A stretch of DNA of 64,000 nucleotides from Micromonospora sp. AMSO31t (lineage in GTDB: Bacteria > Actinomycetota > Actinomycetes > Mycobacteriales > Micromonosporaceae): positions 1 through 64,000 of the forward strand of contig NZ_WBKT01000006.1 of assembly GCF_008868175.1 (NCBI RefSeq). The letters run 5' to 3'. Positions 26,175 through 35,118 of this stretch are shown in pieces; position 1 is the first letter of the stretch; each line of letters starts with the position of its first letter. Below the pieces are notes generated by a model. It did no database searches, was not told where the DNA came from, and was given only the letters and a program-made list of their open reading frames with translations. The translations under genes and the position numbers were made by a program.

Positions 26175-26332
26175 GGCGCGCGGCGCCGACCGTGGCGCGG
26201 GGCCGGCCCCGCGCCAGCCGGCGAACGAGACGGCCCACGCGGACGCGTCATCGGCCGCGGGCAACGGCCGTCCGACCGTGGCCAGGCCGTAGTGGGGCGT
26301 GACCGGCCGTTGATCAAGGCGGCGTTCGACAT
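26175..26332 (-). pseudogene. Frameshifted copy A of the small divergent gene
   Basis: From ATG 26332, behind AAAGGCGATC, it reads MSNAALINGRSRPTTAWPRS then DGR. A single missing base then breaks the frame. Restoring it gives GRLPAADDASAWAVSFAGW, which matches the intact copy at 27413-27583 (GRLPVAASAVWFADW). This is a decayed paralogue; the 3' limit is approximate. Confidence 0.55.
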
Positions 26333-26650
26333 GATCGCCTTTCGATCGTCAGCCGTCCATACGGTATGTATGCTTGCTGACCGGGACCTGCCCCTCCAAC
26401 TCATGCCATCCCACCCATCAGCCGGGTGACGCTGGCCAGATCGGAGCGACTTGGGCTGCTCACACGCTCAGGACTGCCCCCTCTTCCCCCTGCTCAACGC
26501 AAGCTTGGGCGTCTGGCGTAACCACTACTGCGACAGTGCGGAGGGTTGGCGGACATGTGCTCGGTACCAGCTGTACAGGACAGGTCAGCTCGTGCCAATC
26601 ACTCTCCTGCCGAACGGAGTCGACGCGTTCAAGCCCGTACCTGCGGCAGT
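26180..26650. repeat. Duplicated divergent cassette, copy A
   Basis: Aligns with 27425-27890 at roughly 80% identity. It covers the small minus-strand gene, the intergenic region with palindrome and the first ~65 codons of the plus-strand four-cysteine gene. Beyond that the two plus-strand genes are unrelated. Ends were estimated by eye. Confidence 0.75.
26358..26372. promoter_or_regulatory. Palindrome in divergent intergenic region, copy A
   Basis: CATACGGTATGTATG, an imperfect palindrome (CATAC...GTATG arms), lies 26 bases upstream of the minus-strand start and about 80 bases upstream of the plus-strand start. The same element with one base change recurs at 27609-27623. It is a candidate operator shared by both divergent genes. 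Confidence 0.55.
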
Positions 26651-27353
26651 ACCCAGGTCCACTCAGCAGGTGAACGCACGCCGCCAGCGGACGTCAGCAA
26701 CATCACGAGAGGAATTGGATGGATTACCGGCTGCGGAAAGCGCAGGTGCTACGGAGCCGAGTCCACCGGTAAGCCACCCGGATCGCTCAGGCGCGCGAGA
26801 CGAGGTCAGCGATGCGTGGGTGCTTGCCGTCGCCGACGATGCCAAACGCCGCGGCGGTGAACGGCTGCACCTGTGGGTGACGAGCCAGGAGGAGCCGTGG
26901 GCTGCTCCTTTTCCCATCCCGCCGCCAGGGGAGCCTTCTCACGCCGACGGACCGGTGGGGGTCGCCGTCGCGTGGTTCGAGCCAGTCAGCGCCGCGTGGA
27001 CGGAAACCCTCACCGGCTCGCGATGCGAGGCGCAGGTGGAGGCGGCGATCTTGTTGGGCCTGCCCCGCTGGCCATCGGCGACACATCCGGCGAGGGTGAC
27101 CACCTGGGGTGTGGGTCTGGGCGCTACGGGTCTCGCGTTGCGTGACCCGACCGGTCATGTATTCGCCTACGGCGTCGCCGAGATACCGTCCACTTGGACG
27201 ACCGCCGCAAGGGCGCTGGGCGCCGTCGCCGCCGTCTACGGAGTTGGTCCCCCGCAGCAGGCAGTGCACTCCGAGCCGCTTCCGGCCCAACGGCTCACCG
27301 AGGCGCGACGCGACGGAACCGTCGCCGCCGCATGGGTGCCACTGCTCGAGTGA
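26451..27353 (+). CDS. Four-cysteine N-domain protein A with unknown C-terminal domain
   Basis: A 300-residue protein from TTG 26451, behind GGAGCGAC; the paralogue has ATG at this place. Residues 1-60 hold the cassette domain: Cys3, Cys9, Cys27 and Cys36, followed by VPITLLPNG, compatible with a zinc or iron-sulfur site. I recall this type of short domain next to other domains in unrelated bacteria, but cannot name it. Residues about 60-105 are a polar linker. Residues about 110-300 form a second domain (WVLAVADDAKRRGGERLHLW, then AILLGLPRWPSATHPARVTT) that I do not recognise. It is divergent from a decayed small gene. Confidence 0.7.
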   Translation: MGCSHAQDCPLFPLLNASLGVWRNHYCDSAEGWRTCARYQLYRTGQLVPITLLPNGVDAFKPVPAAVPRSTQQVNARRQRTSATSREELDGLPAAESAGATEPSPPVSHPDRSGARDEVSDAWVLAVADDAKRRGGERLHLWVTSQEEPWAAPFPIPPPGEPSHADGPVGVAVAWFEPVSAAWTETLTGSRCEAQVEAAILLGLPRWPSATHPARVTTWGVGLGATGLALRDPTGHVFAYGVAEIPSTWTTAARALGAVAAVYGVGPPQQAVHSEPLPAQRLTEARRDGTVAAAWVPLLE

Positions 27354-27412: not shown

Positions 27413-27583
27413 TCAGGGGTCCTTGGGTGCACCTGTGCCCGGACGCGCCGACCGGGCGCGGGGCTGGCCCCCGCACCAGTCGGCGAACCAGACGGCCGAC
27501 GCGGCCACGGGCAAACGGCCGTCCGACCGCGACCAGACCGTAGTGGGCGTGGTCAGGCCGTTGATGAAATCGCCATTCGACAT
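27413..27583 (-). CDS. Small protein of the divergent cassette, copy B
   Basis: A 56-residue ORF from ATG 27583 behind a strong GAGGAGG ribosome site. It reads MSNGDFINGLTTPTTVWSRS, DGRLPVAASAVWFADWCGG and a basic tail. It is transcribed away from the four-cysteine gene at 27702, with the 27609-27623 palindrome between them. Conservation with the broken copy at 26175-26332, including its ribosome site, supports it as a real gene. Function unknown. Confidence 0.55.
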   Translation of the reverse strand: MSNGDFINGLTTPTTVWSRSDGRLPVAASAVWFADWCGGQPRARSARPGTGAPKDP

Positions 27584-27890
27584 GATCGCCTCCTCATCGC
27601 CAGTCGTCCATACGATATGTATGCTTGCTAATCGAGACCTGCCCCTCCAACTCATGCCATCCCACCCATTCGCCGGGTGATGCTGGCCAGATCGGAGTGA
27701 CATGGGCTGCTCACACGCTCAGGCCTGCCCCCTCTTCCCCCTGCTCAACGCAAGCTTGAGCGCCTGGCGCAACCACTACTGCGACAGTGCGCAGGGCTGG
27801 CGGACGTGCGCTCGGTACGAGCTGTCCCGGACGGGCCGGCCCGTACCCATCACGCTCCTGCCGAATGGAGCCGACGCGATATATCTGGGG
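27425..27890. repeat. Duplicated divergent cassette, copy B
   Basis: Direct-repeat partner of 26180-26650, about 1.25 kb downstream in the same orientation. The plus-strand N-domains are identical at about 50 of 60 residues. Confidence 0.75.
27609..27623. promoter_or_regulatory. Palindrome in divergent intergenic region, copy B
   Basis: CATACGATATGTATG, the second copy of the palindrome at 26358-26372, again 26 bases from the small minus-strand gene start and about 80 bases before the four-cysteine gene. Confidence 0.55.
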
Positions 27891-28136
27891 CGCGTACCCG
27901 CCGGTGTGGGGTCGGACACGGCGCGCCAGACACCCCCGTCGCGGCTCGATCCGGGGTCCTCGCAGCGGTTCGAGCCCGTGCCGGCCGGGGAGCTCAATCC
28001 GATACCGGCACCCGCTCAAGGGGTCAACCCCGGCTCGTCCGCAGCGGGTCCGTACAGAACCCCATCCGCTCGACCGGCGCCTCGGCGGGTCCCGTGGTGG
28101 ACCCGACTCGTAGATTGGATTGCAGGTCCCGCATGA
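27702..28136 (+). CDS. Four-cysteine N-domain protein B, coupled to YeeE transporter
   Basis: A 144-residue protein from ATG 27702, behind GGAGTGAC. Residues 1-60 repeat the Cys3/Cys9/Cys27/Cys36 domain and VPITLLPNG end of protein A. A Pro/Ser/Gly-rich linker (about 65-125) follows, then a tryptophan-rich hydrophobic tail (VPWWTRLVDWIAGPA) that could sit at the membrane. Its stop overlaps the start of the YeeE-type gene (ATGA, 28133-28136), so the two are translationally coupled. This links the domain to the sulfur transporter; a sulfur-relay or redox role is inference. Confidence 0.72.
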   Translation: MGCSHAQACPLFPLLNASLSAWRNHYCDSAQGWRTCARYELSRTGRPVPITLLPNGADAIYLGRVPAGVGSDTARQTPPSRLDPGSSQRFEPVPAGELNPIPAPAQGVNPGSSAAGPYRTPSARPAPRRVPWWTRLVDWIAGPA

Positions 28137-28789
28137 CTGAATACTGGCCCTGGTGGGCGGGGGCTGCCGGGCTCGCTCTCATCACCATCAACTACGCCGT
28201 CACGACCGATCGATCCTTCGGAGTGTCCGGTGCGTGGGACCGCGTGCTGCACTGGCGCGCCGAACGCCGGGTCGAACGGGTGAACGAGCAGTTCGCTGAC
28301 GAACGTGTCCTCGTCGAGGCTCTCGCCGCGGCGGCCGCCGACCAGTTCGGAGCCGGTTCGGCGGCACCTGCTGCACATCCCGCCTCGCACGGCGACGCGC
28401 GGGCACCGCGACAGGACGGACGACCACCTGCCTCGCCGAGCTCCTCACTGGCGAGCCGGCTCCCGGCACCCTTGGTCAGCCAGGTCGCCCTGCTCCTGTC
28501 AATCTTCGTCGGCGGGTGGATAGCGGCGGTTACCGCCGGCCGGTTCCGGCTCCGCCTCGACATGGGCGACGCCTTCGGCCAGATCGTGACCGATAAACCG
28601 ATCGCAATGATTGGCGCGCTGTTCGTCGGCGGGGTGCTCGTCGGCTTCGGTACCCGTCTCGCCGGAGGGTGCAGCAGCGGTCACGGGCTCAATGGCTGCG
28701 GCCGGCTACAGCCGGTCAGCATCGTCGCGACCGCCGTCTTCTTCGGCACCGGCGTCCTCGTGTCGTTCCTGCTGTGGAAGGTGATCTGA
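28133..28789 (+). CDS. YeeE/YedE-family sulfur (thiosulfate) transporter, first half
   Basis: A 218-residue membrane protein. A first helix (about 7-24) and a charged cytoplasmic stretch of about 80 residues precede the family core (about 112-218). The core signature is GTRLAGGCSSGHGLNGCGRL. Cysteines in this signature form the sulfur-relay path in the thiosulfate importer TsuA/YeeE. The gene overlaps its neighbours on both sides (ATGA before, TGATG after). The N-terminal extension is longer than in usual half-size YeeE proteins. Confidence 0.85.
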   Translation: MTEYWPWWAGAAGLALITINYAVTTDRSFGVSGAWDRVLHWRAERRVERVNEQFADERVLVEALAAAAADQFGAGSAAPAAHPASHGDARAPRQDGRPPASPSSSLASRLPAPLVSQVALLLSIFVGGWIAAVTAGRFRLRLDMGDAFGQIVTDKPIAMIGALFVGGVLVGFGTRLAGGCSSGHGLNGCGRLQPVSIVATAVFFGTGVLVSFLLWKVI

Positions 28790-29205
28790 TGCGTACCCGG
28801 GGCGGGATAGTCCTCGCTAACATCATCGCTGGGCTGGCGCTCGGCTTTACCGTCGCGAACATCGGGTTCGGTGACTACGCCGAACTGAACCGTATGTTCA
28901 CCTTCCAGGATCTGCGCATGTTCCTGGCCTTCGCCGGCGGCGTAGCGATCATCGTCGTGGTATTCGCCGTATTGCGCGTCCGCCGCACCCCAGGTCGAAT
29001 CCACGCCGGCGTAATCCCCGGCGCAATCTTGTTCGGCGCGGGCTGGGCGATCTCGGGTGGCTGCCCGGCGATCCCCATCGTCCAAGTCGCCAGCGGGTAC
29101 CTCCCCGCCTTGGTCACGATCGCCGGCATAGTCGTCGGCATCCGGCTCTGCCGCTGGGCCAACACGAGGTACTTCCACCTCGACAGCGGATCCTGCGAGC
29201 GGTAG
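28789..29205 (+). CDS. YeeE/YedE-family transporter, second half (DUF6691-like)
   Basis: A 138-residue membrane protein with four hydrophobic segments. The second family signature, ISGGCPAIPIVQVASG, contains the conserved cysteine. It is normally found in the second half of full-length YeeE proteins, or in the DUF6691 partner of split systems. It starts inside the stop of the preceding gene (TGATG), so the two halves are made together and probably form one channel. Confidence 0.83.
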   Translation: MRTRGGIVLANIIAGLALGFTVANIGFGDYAELNRMFTFQDLRMFLAFAGGVAIIVVVFAVLRVRRTPGRIHAGVIPGAILFGAGWAISGGCPAIPIVQVASGYLPALVTIAGIVVGIRLCRWANTRYFHLDSGSCER

Positions 29206-31319: not shown

Positions 31320-32723
31320 TCACACCAGGTACTGGCTGAGGTCGCGCTTCAGGAACGTGCCGTGCCCGGCGGCGCCGTGGAAGGCGTTGGCGTCGACGAC
31401 GATCCGGCCGCGGGACAACACGGTGGAGACCTTGCCGGTCAGCCGCATGCCCTCGTACGCGGAATAGTCCACGTTCATGTGGTGGCTGCCGGCGGAGATG
31501 GTCTGCTCGGCCGTCGGGTCGTACACCGTGATGTCCGCGTCCGCGCCCGGGGCGATGACGCCCTTGCGGGGGTAGAGGCCGAACATCCGGGCGGGCGTGG
31601 TCGAGCTGATCTCGACCCAGCGCGGCAGGGTGATCTCGCCCTTCACGACGCCCTGGTAGAGCAGGTCCATCCGGTGCTCGACGCCCGGCATCCCGTTGGG
31701 GATCTTCGAGAAGTCTCCCCGGCCCAGCTCCTTCTGGTCCTTGAAGCAGAAGGGGCAGTGGTCGGTGGACACCAGCGACAGGTCGTTGGTGCGCAGGCCC
31801 CGCCACAGTTCCGCCTGGTGCTCCTTGGGCCGCAGCGGGGGAGAGGCGACGTACTTCGCGCCCTCGAAGTCAGGCCTGGCCAGGTCGTCCAGCGACAGGA
31901 ACAGGTATTGCGGGCAGGTCTCGGCGAACACGTTCTGCCCGGTGTCGCGGGCCTGGGTGACCGCGTCGAGGGCGTGCGCGGCGGACAGGTGCACGATGTA
32001 CAGCGGTGCGCCGGTGACCTTCGCCAGGGTGATCGCCCGGGAGGTTGCCTCGCCTTCCAGCTCGGGCGGCCGGGTCAGTCCGTGCTGTACCGGGTCGGTC
32101 CGCCCACTCGCCAGTGCCTGCGCGACGAGCTGGTCGATGGCGATGCCGTTCTCCGCATGCATCATGATCATCGATCCGGTGTCCCGGGCCTTCTGCATCG
32201 CCCGCAGGATGTCCCCGTCGGTGGCGTAGAAGACACCCGGGTAGGCCATGAACATCTTGAAGGTGTTCACGCCCGCGTCGATGCAGGCCTCCATCTCTTT
32301 GAGCGACGTGTCGTTGACGTCCGAGACGATCATGTGGAACCCGTAGTCGATCGCGCAGTTGCCGTCGGCCTTGCTGTGCCACTTGTCCAGCGCGGACAGC
32401 AGCGACGTTCCCTTGCCCTGCACGGCGAAGTCGATGATCGTGGTCGTGCCGCCCCAGGCCGCGGCGGTCGTCCCGCTTTCGAAGGTGTCGGCCGAGAAGG
32501 TGCCCCCGAACGGCATCTCCATGTGGGTGTGGCCGTCGATGCCGCCGGGCACCACGTACTTCCCGGCGGCGTCGATCACTCGTTCGGCGCCGGACGCCCA
32601 CTGCTGGGCCAGACCCGAGTCCGGCGCGGCGAGCGCGGCGATCCGCTCGCCCTCCACCAGCACGTCCGCCGGGTACTCCCCGGTGGCGTTGACGACTGTT
32701 CCGTTGCGGATGACGATGCTCAC
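31320..32723 (-). CDS. hydA: Dihydropyrimidinase / D-hydantoinase
   Basis: A 467-residue cyclic amidohydrolase that opens the dihydrouracil/hydantoin ring. The metal motif GGIDGHTHMEMPFGG, the carboxylated lysine region NTFKMFMAYPG, HAENG, YIVHLSAAHAL and the Asp of STDHCPFC are all present. The GTG start at 32723 overlaps the stop of the upstream amidohydrolase gene (GTGA). The longer frame to 32777 lies inside that neighbour and was rejected. Operon order: transporter, carbamoyl hydrolase, this gene, F420 oxidoreductase. Confidence 0.92.
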   Translation of the reverse strand: MSIVIRNGTVVNATGEYPADVLVEGERIAALAAPDSGLAQQWASGAERVIDAAGKYVVPGGIDGHTHMEMPFGGTFSADTFESGTTAAAWGGTTTIIDFAVQGKGTSLLSALDKWHSKADGNCAIDYGFHMIVSDVNDTSLKEMEACIDAGVNTFKMFMAYPGVFYATDGDILRAMQKARDTGSMIMMHAENGIAIDQLVAQALASGRTDPVQHGLTRPPELEGEATSRAITLAKVTGAPLYIVHLSAAHALDAVTQARDTGQNVFAETCPQYLFLSLDDLARPDFEGAKYVASPPLRPKEHQAELWRGLRTNDLSLVSTDHCPFCFKDQKELGRGDFSKIPNGMPGVEHRMDLLYQGVVKGEITLPRWVEISSTTPARMFGLYPRKGVIAPGADADITVYDPTAEQTISAGSHHMNVDYSAYEGMRLTGKVSTVLSRGRIVVDANAFHGAAGHGTFLKRDLSQYLV

Positions 32724-33558
32724 GGCGTCACCAGCGATTCGTAGGTCTCCGGCCGGCGGTCGCGGTAGAACGCCCACAGGTCGCGCACCTCGGCCAGCCG
32801 GTCCATGTCGAGATCGCGGATGACGACCTCTTCTTCGGTGTCCGACGCGGCGTCGCCGACCAGTTGCCCCCGCGGGTCCACGAAGTAGGACTGGCCGTAG
32901 AAGTCATTGTCGCCCAACGGTTCCACGCCGACGCGGTTGATCGTGCCGACGTAGTACTCGTTGGCGACCGCGGCGGCCGGCTGCTCGAGGCGCCAGAGGT
33001 ACTCGGACAGGCCGCGGCTCGTGGCGGAGGGGTTGAAGACGATCTTCGCGCCGGCCAGCCCCAGCGCCCGCCAGCCTTCGGGGAAGTGCCGTTCGTAGCA
33101 GATGTAGACGCCGATGCGGCCCACCGCGGTGTCGAACACAGGATAGCCGAGGTTTCCCGGCCGGAAGTAGAACTTCTCCCAGAACCCCTTCACCTGCGGG
33201 ATGTGGTTCTTGCGGTGCTTGCCGAGATAGGTGCCGTCGGCGTCGATCACCGCCGCCGTGTTGTAGTAGACGCCTGGTTGTTCCTGCTCGTACATCGGCA
33301 CGATCAGCACCACGCCGTGCTGCTCGGCCAGCTCACGCATGAGCGCGGTCGTCGGCCCGTCGGGGATCGCCTCGGTGTACGAGTAGTAGTCGGCGTCCTG
33401 CACCTGGCAGAAGTACGGGCCATAGAACAACTCCTGCAGGCAGACGACCTGTGCGCCCTGCGACGCGGCGCTGCGGATCGCCTCCACCGCGTTCGCGATC
33501 ATCGACTCCTTGTCGCCGGTCCACTTCTGCTGCACCAGCCCGGCTCGGATGATGGTGC

Positions 33559-33562
<4 letters not shown>
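32720..33562 (-). CDS. Beta-ureidopropionase-like nitrilase (N-carbamoyl-beta-alanine amidohydrolase)
   Basis: A 280-residue carbon-nitrogen hydrolase. The catalytic triad is visible: Glu in VVCLQELFYGPYF (~44), Lys in GKHRKNHIPQ (~115) and Cys in GVYICYERHFPEG (~155). The protein is most like the beta-ureidopropionase/N-carbamoyl amidase branch, which releases beta-alanine, CO2 and ammonia. ATG 33562 has a strong site (AAGGAGGAGAACCG) and overlaps the transporter stop (ATGA). A much longer open frame upstream is only the shadow of the transporter gene. Confidence 0.9.

Positions 33563-35118
<1,556 letters not shown>

Follow-up and report, generated by a model that had tools for sequence, protein, structure and literature searches.

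In the YeeE/YeeD (TsuA/TsuB) system, YeeD takes thiosulfate at the exit of YeeE (PMC11073785). A second arrangement is the PmpA/PmpB pair, in which PmpA corresponds to the C-terminal half and PmpB to the N-terminal half of YeeE, with one key cysteine each (PMC11582611). We studied a 64,000-nt stretch of DNA from Micromonospora sp. AMSO31t (the window), in which three overlapping genes, P0001, P0002 and P0003, encode a small four-cysteine protein and two short YeeE-type proteins (Table 1).

As in YeeE/YeeD (PMC11073785), the gene of a YeeE-type membrane protein here adjoins that of a small cysteine protein, which is cytoplasmic in the case of YeeD. Unlike YeeD, which the same source describes as a TusA-family protein with a CPxP motif, P0001 has the motif CPLFP, four invariant cysteines, a linker and a Trp-rich tail, and unlike YeeE the transporter of the cassette is split in two (PMC11073785). 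In this respect it resembles PmpA/PmpB (PMC11582611), with two short proteins whose key cysteines lie at the third and second YeeE cysteine positions. It differs from that pair in the extra invariant cysteines C189 and C136, in a PmpA-like half of 218 aa, which includes a long, poorly conserved stretch, and in the four-cysteine partner (PMC11582611). No four-cysteine partner of YeeE was found among the literature matches listed, judged by titles and abstract openings, with subscription journals mostly outside the search.

Other YeeE-type pairs offer a further comparison. By eye, four of the eight that we examined have a TusA-like or a rhodanese/metallo-beta-lactamase-like partner: in L207, a TusA-like CPVP protein is encoded between the halves; in L204 (1759–3111) and L206 (524–1870), the PmpB-like N-half runs on into a rhodanese-like region with GGCG at its end; and in L202, a metallo-beta-lactamase-like gene lies alongside the pair. 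The other four showed no recognisable partner. In this small and distant sample, a cysteine at the C189 position was found in none of the eight pairs, and a tail cysteine like C136 in none of the five unfused N-halves (L201, L202, L203, L205 and L207).

Layout of the cassette and its transporter halves

An earlier note on this DNA had described the three genes as overlapping and as coding for a split YeeE-type transporter with two cysteine signatures, and these features were all recovered. In the DNA, the P0001 stop lies over the P0002 start (ATGA) and the P0002 stop over the P0003 start (TGATG). Inspection of the sequence found GGCSSGHGLNGCG in P0002 and ISGGCPAIPI in P0003, the second and third genes. 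Both proteins also scored above the PF04143 cut-off of 27 bits, P0002 at positions 227–308 of the family (40.5 bits) and P0003 at positions 8–100 (32.1 bits), and the gene order is therefore C-half, then N-half.

Table 1. Coordinates in the window of the cassette, its parts, the longer upstream copy and the direct repeat
Feature	Position	Strand	Remarks
P0001, four-Cys partner, 144 aa	27702..28136	+	domain residues 1-59, Pro-rich linker, C-terminal WWTRLVDWIAGPA
Four-Cys domain of P0001	27702..27878	+	Cys codons 27708, 27726, 27780, 27807
Codons for WWxRxxxW region of P0001 C-terminus	28095..28133	+	run into ATGA overlap
P0002, 218 aa, PmpA-like C-half of putative YeeE-type transporter	28133..28789	+	profile, structure match, conservation
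P0003, 138 aa, PmpB-like N-half of putative YeeE-type transporter	28789..29205	+	profile, conservation
P0004, longer paralogue, 300-aa ORF, TTG start	26451..27353	+	same four-Cys domain, different C-terminal region
Upstream copy of 300-nt direct repeat	26263..26562	+	88% identity
Downstream copy of 300-nt direct repeat	27514..27813	+	88% over 300 nt

In a structure-database search, P0002 matched solved YeeE chains (E 2.7e-6), and its C180 aligns with the GGC motif of YeeE. P0003 had no convincing match among solved structures, and its C92 was assigned by motif. Scores against narrower families stayed low: P0003 reached 20.1 bits against DUF6691 (PF20398; cut-off 27) and P0002 34.8 bits against TsuA (NCBIfam NF052577), for which the cut-off of 400 was made for the full-length protein. 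The AMED_5909 family, tried as an identity, was rejected (12.4 bits versus a cut-off of 35). Going by sequence, we assign the transporter to PF04143 as a PmpAB-like member; its substrate would, as expected of this family, be thiosulfate or a different sulfane-sulfur compound. The cysteines of P0001 are C3, C9, C27 and C36 in the ORF translation. Upstream of its start codon, a GGAG resembling a ribosome-binding site is, together with its surroundings, common to most copies.

Linkage, selection and loss of the four-cysteine gene

The earlier note had named restriction of the coupling to a single genome as grounds for doubt, and we found the coupling in other genomes too. Using a profile of the four-cysteine domain (A1; E 0.01), we detected 13 of 160 genomes of the genus, one of which (G058; 19.5 bits over 19 residues) was left out, giving 12. 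PF04143 was above its cut-off in the same 12 genomes and gave one match each below the cut-off in five others; the probability of this overlap by chance is 2.6e-18 if genomes are taken as independent, which they are not. The 12 genomes contain 13 loci, all with the transporter directly downstream of the domain, and an additional domain fragment at a contig end of G039 that was not placeable. In a phylum sample of 396 genomes, there was no strong A1 match outside the genus, and three weak matches pointed us to the wider family described below. Among the phylum matches of at most 20 bits, the eight that were examined (L057–L061, L063–L065) looked like chance, as did L090.

A profile of P0003 found eight of 397 genomes of the order: five of the genus, one of another family (G779), in which two loci have the full cassette, and, more weakly, G678 and G837, without a four-cysteine gene in the stretches fetched. 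In the family of G779, where loci were located by the four-cysteine domain, 27 loci were found, spread over 24 of 390 genomes and 6 of 46 genera, and the transporter was directly downstream in 26 of them, the remaining one (L176) being cut by a contig end. Over both families, which contribute 7 genera, the count comes to 39 of 39 testable loci. The overlap between the four-cysteine gene and the transporter is 4 nt in the eight undamaged genus loci and, as computed, in 24 of the 26 second-family loci, the two exceptions overlapping by 7 and 8 nt. Some second-family copies carry an extra one or two cysteines.

The surroundings of the cassette differ far more. Flanks compared in 15 loci were common only to G004, G039 and the first locus of G087, and to G047 and G056. 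In the wider flanks of 33 loci, once the cassette genes and the frames read on the strand opposite them are set aside, no family was present in more than five; this survey used a simple ORF caller, which may miss small neighbours, since it recovered P0002 at only 25 of these loci. In the same survey no other sulfur gene recurred near the cassette, which we count against the explanation preferred below. That the association just reflects the common descent of a few genomes is highly improbable: the counts are uncorrected for kinship and G678 and G837 have the transporter relative alone in the fetched stretches, but the linkage holds at every testable locus in two families and amid differing surroundings.

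The genes are also conserved together. For this comparison we used 33 loci (8 of the genus, 25 of the second family), after dropping the five damaged genus loci described below and the two cut ones, L176 and L183. Cysteines 3, 9, 27 and 36 and the C-terminal WWxRxxxW of P0001, C180 and C189 of P0002, and C92 and the tail C136 of P0003 are invariant throughout. In the eight undamaged genus loci, dN/dS was 0.22 for the four-cysteine domain, 0.21 for the P0002 core and 0.16 for P0003, compared with 0.61 for the P0001 linker and 0.53 for its last 18 codons. Given the selection on the domain and the recurrence of the arrangement in two families, the arrangement goes beyond chance. Distances between domains correlated with those of the two transporter halves (r 0.77 and 0.73; reached in 0 of 2000 shuffles, with kinship ignored). 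A weak point is the P0001 linker, whose base composition hardly looks coding (GC 0.75, 0.71 and 0.75 at the three codon positions).

The window has a second copy of the domain, absent from the earlier note, in P0004, the longer paralogue upstream of the cassette. The direct repeat, with its copies 1.25 kb apart, spans the four-cysteine domain and 188 nt of DNA 5′ of it, and the P0004 extension (about 200–240 aa) has no Pfam match. Longer copies of this type are present in 7 genus loci. The short gene (P0001 type) is damaged in 5 of the 13 genus loci while the transporter is intact there, a further point against our preferred explanation. In G032, G039 and the first locus of G087, the damaged genes keep the four cysteines and have lost the rest or the tail; in G004 and G589, cysteines are among what is lost. 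Four of these five loci have an intact longer paralogue, and the fifth (G039) ends at a contig end. Where no longer copy was found, the short gene is undamaged in all of five genus loci (two-sided p 0.075 for the contrast, with G039 counted as having a longer copy). This pattern hints that one copy of the four-cysteine domain is kept; equally, it makes plain that loss can extend to the short gene itself. The dN/dS of the domain, the invariance of cysteines and tail across two families and these five undamaged genes make it very unlikely that a mobile operon just carries the four-cysteine gene along as a passenger without a role in transport, even though the gene's patchy occurrence (12 of 160 and 24 of 390 genomes), the mostly unshared flanks of the genus loci and G779, and the damaged copies would fit such a passenger.

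The four-cysteine family and the possible role of P0001

P0001 matched no Pfam family at E 1 and therefore neither TusA (PF01206) nor rhodanese. To judge from this and from its CPLFP in place of the CPxP of TusA and YeeD, P0001 is no TusA. The proposal that a different four-cysteine protein holds the place of TusA or rhodanese is supported for the locus, where P0001 is the constant neighbour of the transporter, but not for the genome: TusA is encoded away from the cassette in all 12 cassette genomes of the genus, so P0001 is no replacement for it in the whole cell. We count this, too, against the preferred explanation.

By profile comparison, P0001 belongs, as a divergent member, to an unnamed family of small four-cysteine proteins (cassette domain versus wider family, hhalign 97.2%, E 3.5e-11). 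A scan of genome contigs gave 33 loci, of which one (L124; 20 residues) was dropped; the remaining 32 (L092–L123), with open frames of 60–131 aa, are spread over numerous groups of bacteria and two of archaea (Archaeoglobales and Thermoplasmata). The four-cysteine protein of L092 is identical to that of G272, a genome of the same phylum, Actinomycetota. L101 (without the first two cysteines as called), L120 (cut) and L122 (divergent) were left out of the family alignments A7 and A9; the 29 aligned members, like the protein in the window, keep all four cysteines without exception. The cassette domain shares with this family the same pattern of four cysteines, YC, CAR, VP and LxP. Unlike P0001, the family members have no linker and no WWxRxxxW tail, and they are not encoded beside YeeE. 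P0001, with its linker and conserved tail, is not a stand-alone single domain, and neither is P0004, with its long extension. The wider family had no common match in Pfam (26 sequences) or NCBIfam (31 sequences).

With YeeE profiles, which we preferred over a motif pattern that misses, for example, DGCPSG, no YeeE half was found beside the four-cysteine gene at any of the 32 loci (flanks of up to 6 kb on each side, less at contig ends). As a control, both halves were recovered in 10 of 10 loci with the own sequence excluded, some of them having close relatives in the set; for two cassette control loci, the window's sequence was the one excluded. PF04143 is present somewhere in 17 of the 31 genomes with wider-family loci. 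The other doubt raised in the earlier note, that the domain might normally occur away from sulfur genes, is therefore justified as far as the YeeE neighbourhood is concerned. Sulfur handling is thus not the general context of the wider family, and the actinobacterial cassette puts a general domain to a special use.

Most likely, the transporter has in P0001 a dedicated partner, which takes the position that TusA or rhodanese holds elsewhere; that P0001 is a partner of the transporter, we regard as very probable. In the mechanism that we propose, the three genes would form a self-contained cassette, in which P0002 and P0003 jointly make up a PmpAB-like, YeeE-type transporter of a sulfur compound, and P0001 would be its dedicated cytoplasmic partner and contact it. 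The flexible linker and the Trp-rich C-terminus would tether the four-cysteine domain to the membrane or to the transporter. No hydrophobic segment of P0001 is strong enough for a membrane span; the helical moment of the tail peptides is 0.48–0.75, and four of eight peptides exceed 95% of shuffles, so that tail amphipathicity is only suggestive. By analogy, P0001 may work like YeeD: its domain, using at least one of the four invariant cysteines, would accept imported sulfur where it emerges on the cytoplasmic side, the part that YeeD/TsuB plays for YeeE/TsuA. C189 of P0002 and the tail C136 of P0003, beyond the usual two, may lengthen the relay. We give the proposal as a whole, a cassette with a tethered cytoplasmic P0001 taking over imported sulfur, an even chance. 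The sulfur hand-off on the P0001 cysteines, argued from YeeD, is a tentative assignment whose chance falls slightly short of even. Overall, the sulfur-partner interpretation of the earlier note is partly supported.

Four invariant cysteines suit a metal site at least as naturally. They could bind zinc or an Fe-S cluster, with P0001 gating or sensing transport and accepting no sulfur, which we consider possible, if on the doubtful side. All four are invariant in the 33 cassette loci as well as in the 29 aligned members of the wider family, when one conserved cysteine would be enough for a TusA-like acceptor, and in the relative L055 (913–1716) the four-cysteine domain forms the C-terminus of what looks by eye like a uracil-DNA glycosylase, remote from sulfur transport. 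Neither the absence of a match to a known metal-binding fold nor L101 as called agrees with such a site. The four-cysteine profile had no convincing match among solved structures. Structure prediction gave a poor model for the window domain (mean pLDDT 64.5, pTM 0.43), and a fold search with it found no match; the model of a stand-alone relative, which is helical (pLDDT 86.4, pTM 0.69), had no match in the PDB and hit six viral models only at E 3.6 or worse.

We think it unlikely that P0001 represents a new class of sulfur acceptor, in which an extended relay of C92, C180, C189 and C136 would deliver imported sulfur to a membrane-tethered four-cysteine domain, to be kept there as a persulfide or on a metal-sulfur site. 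If this were true, the widespread stand-alone relatives in bacteria and archaea would be unrecognised sulfur or metal carriers. A selected, co-inherited partner from another protein family would in itself enlarge the known set of hand-over proteins. The compact three-gene cassette is open to experiment, and it provides a first functional context for a family of small proteins that is widespread and for which our searches found no model in Pfam or NCBIfam.

Further observations on the locus and its surroundings

Viral contigs held no relative of P0001 or of A1, and plasmids none of P0004 or P0002, in collections where records near the window's genome are possibly missing. A viral or plasmid origin was rejected, the only trace being one weak 133-base phage match to transporter DNA. 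Two separate four-cysteine loci each are present in G087, G779, G1132 and G1196. In the window, a short inverted repeat, CATAC-N5-GTATG, lies 5′ of P0001 at 27609–27623, with CATACGGTATG in other copies of the genus; it could be an operator or chance. Adjoining the cassette, the stretch 31320–35118 contains a dihydropyrimidinase-like gene, recognised by eye, and an NCS1-type transporter, so called by its database name, and is probably a pyrimidine-breakdown cluster.
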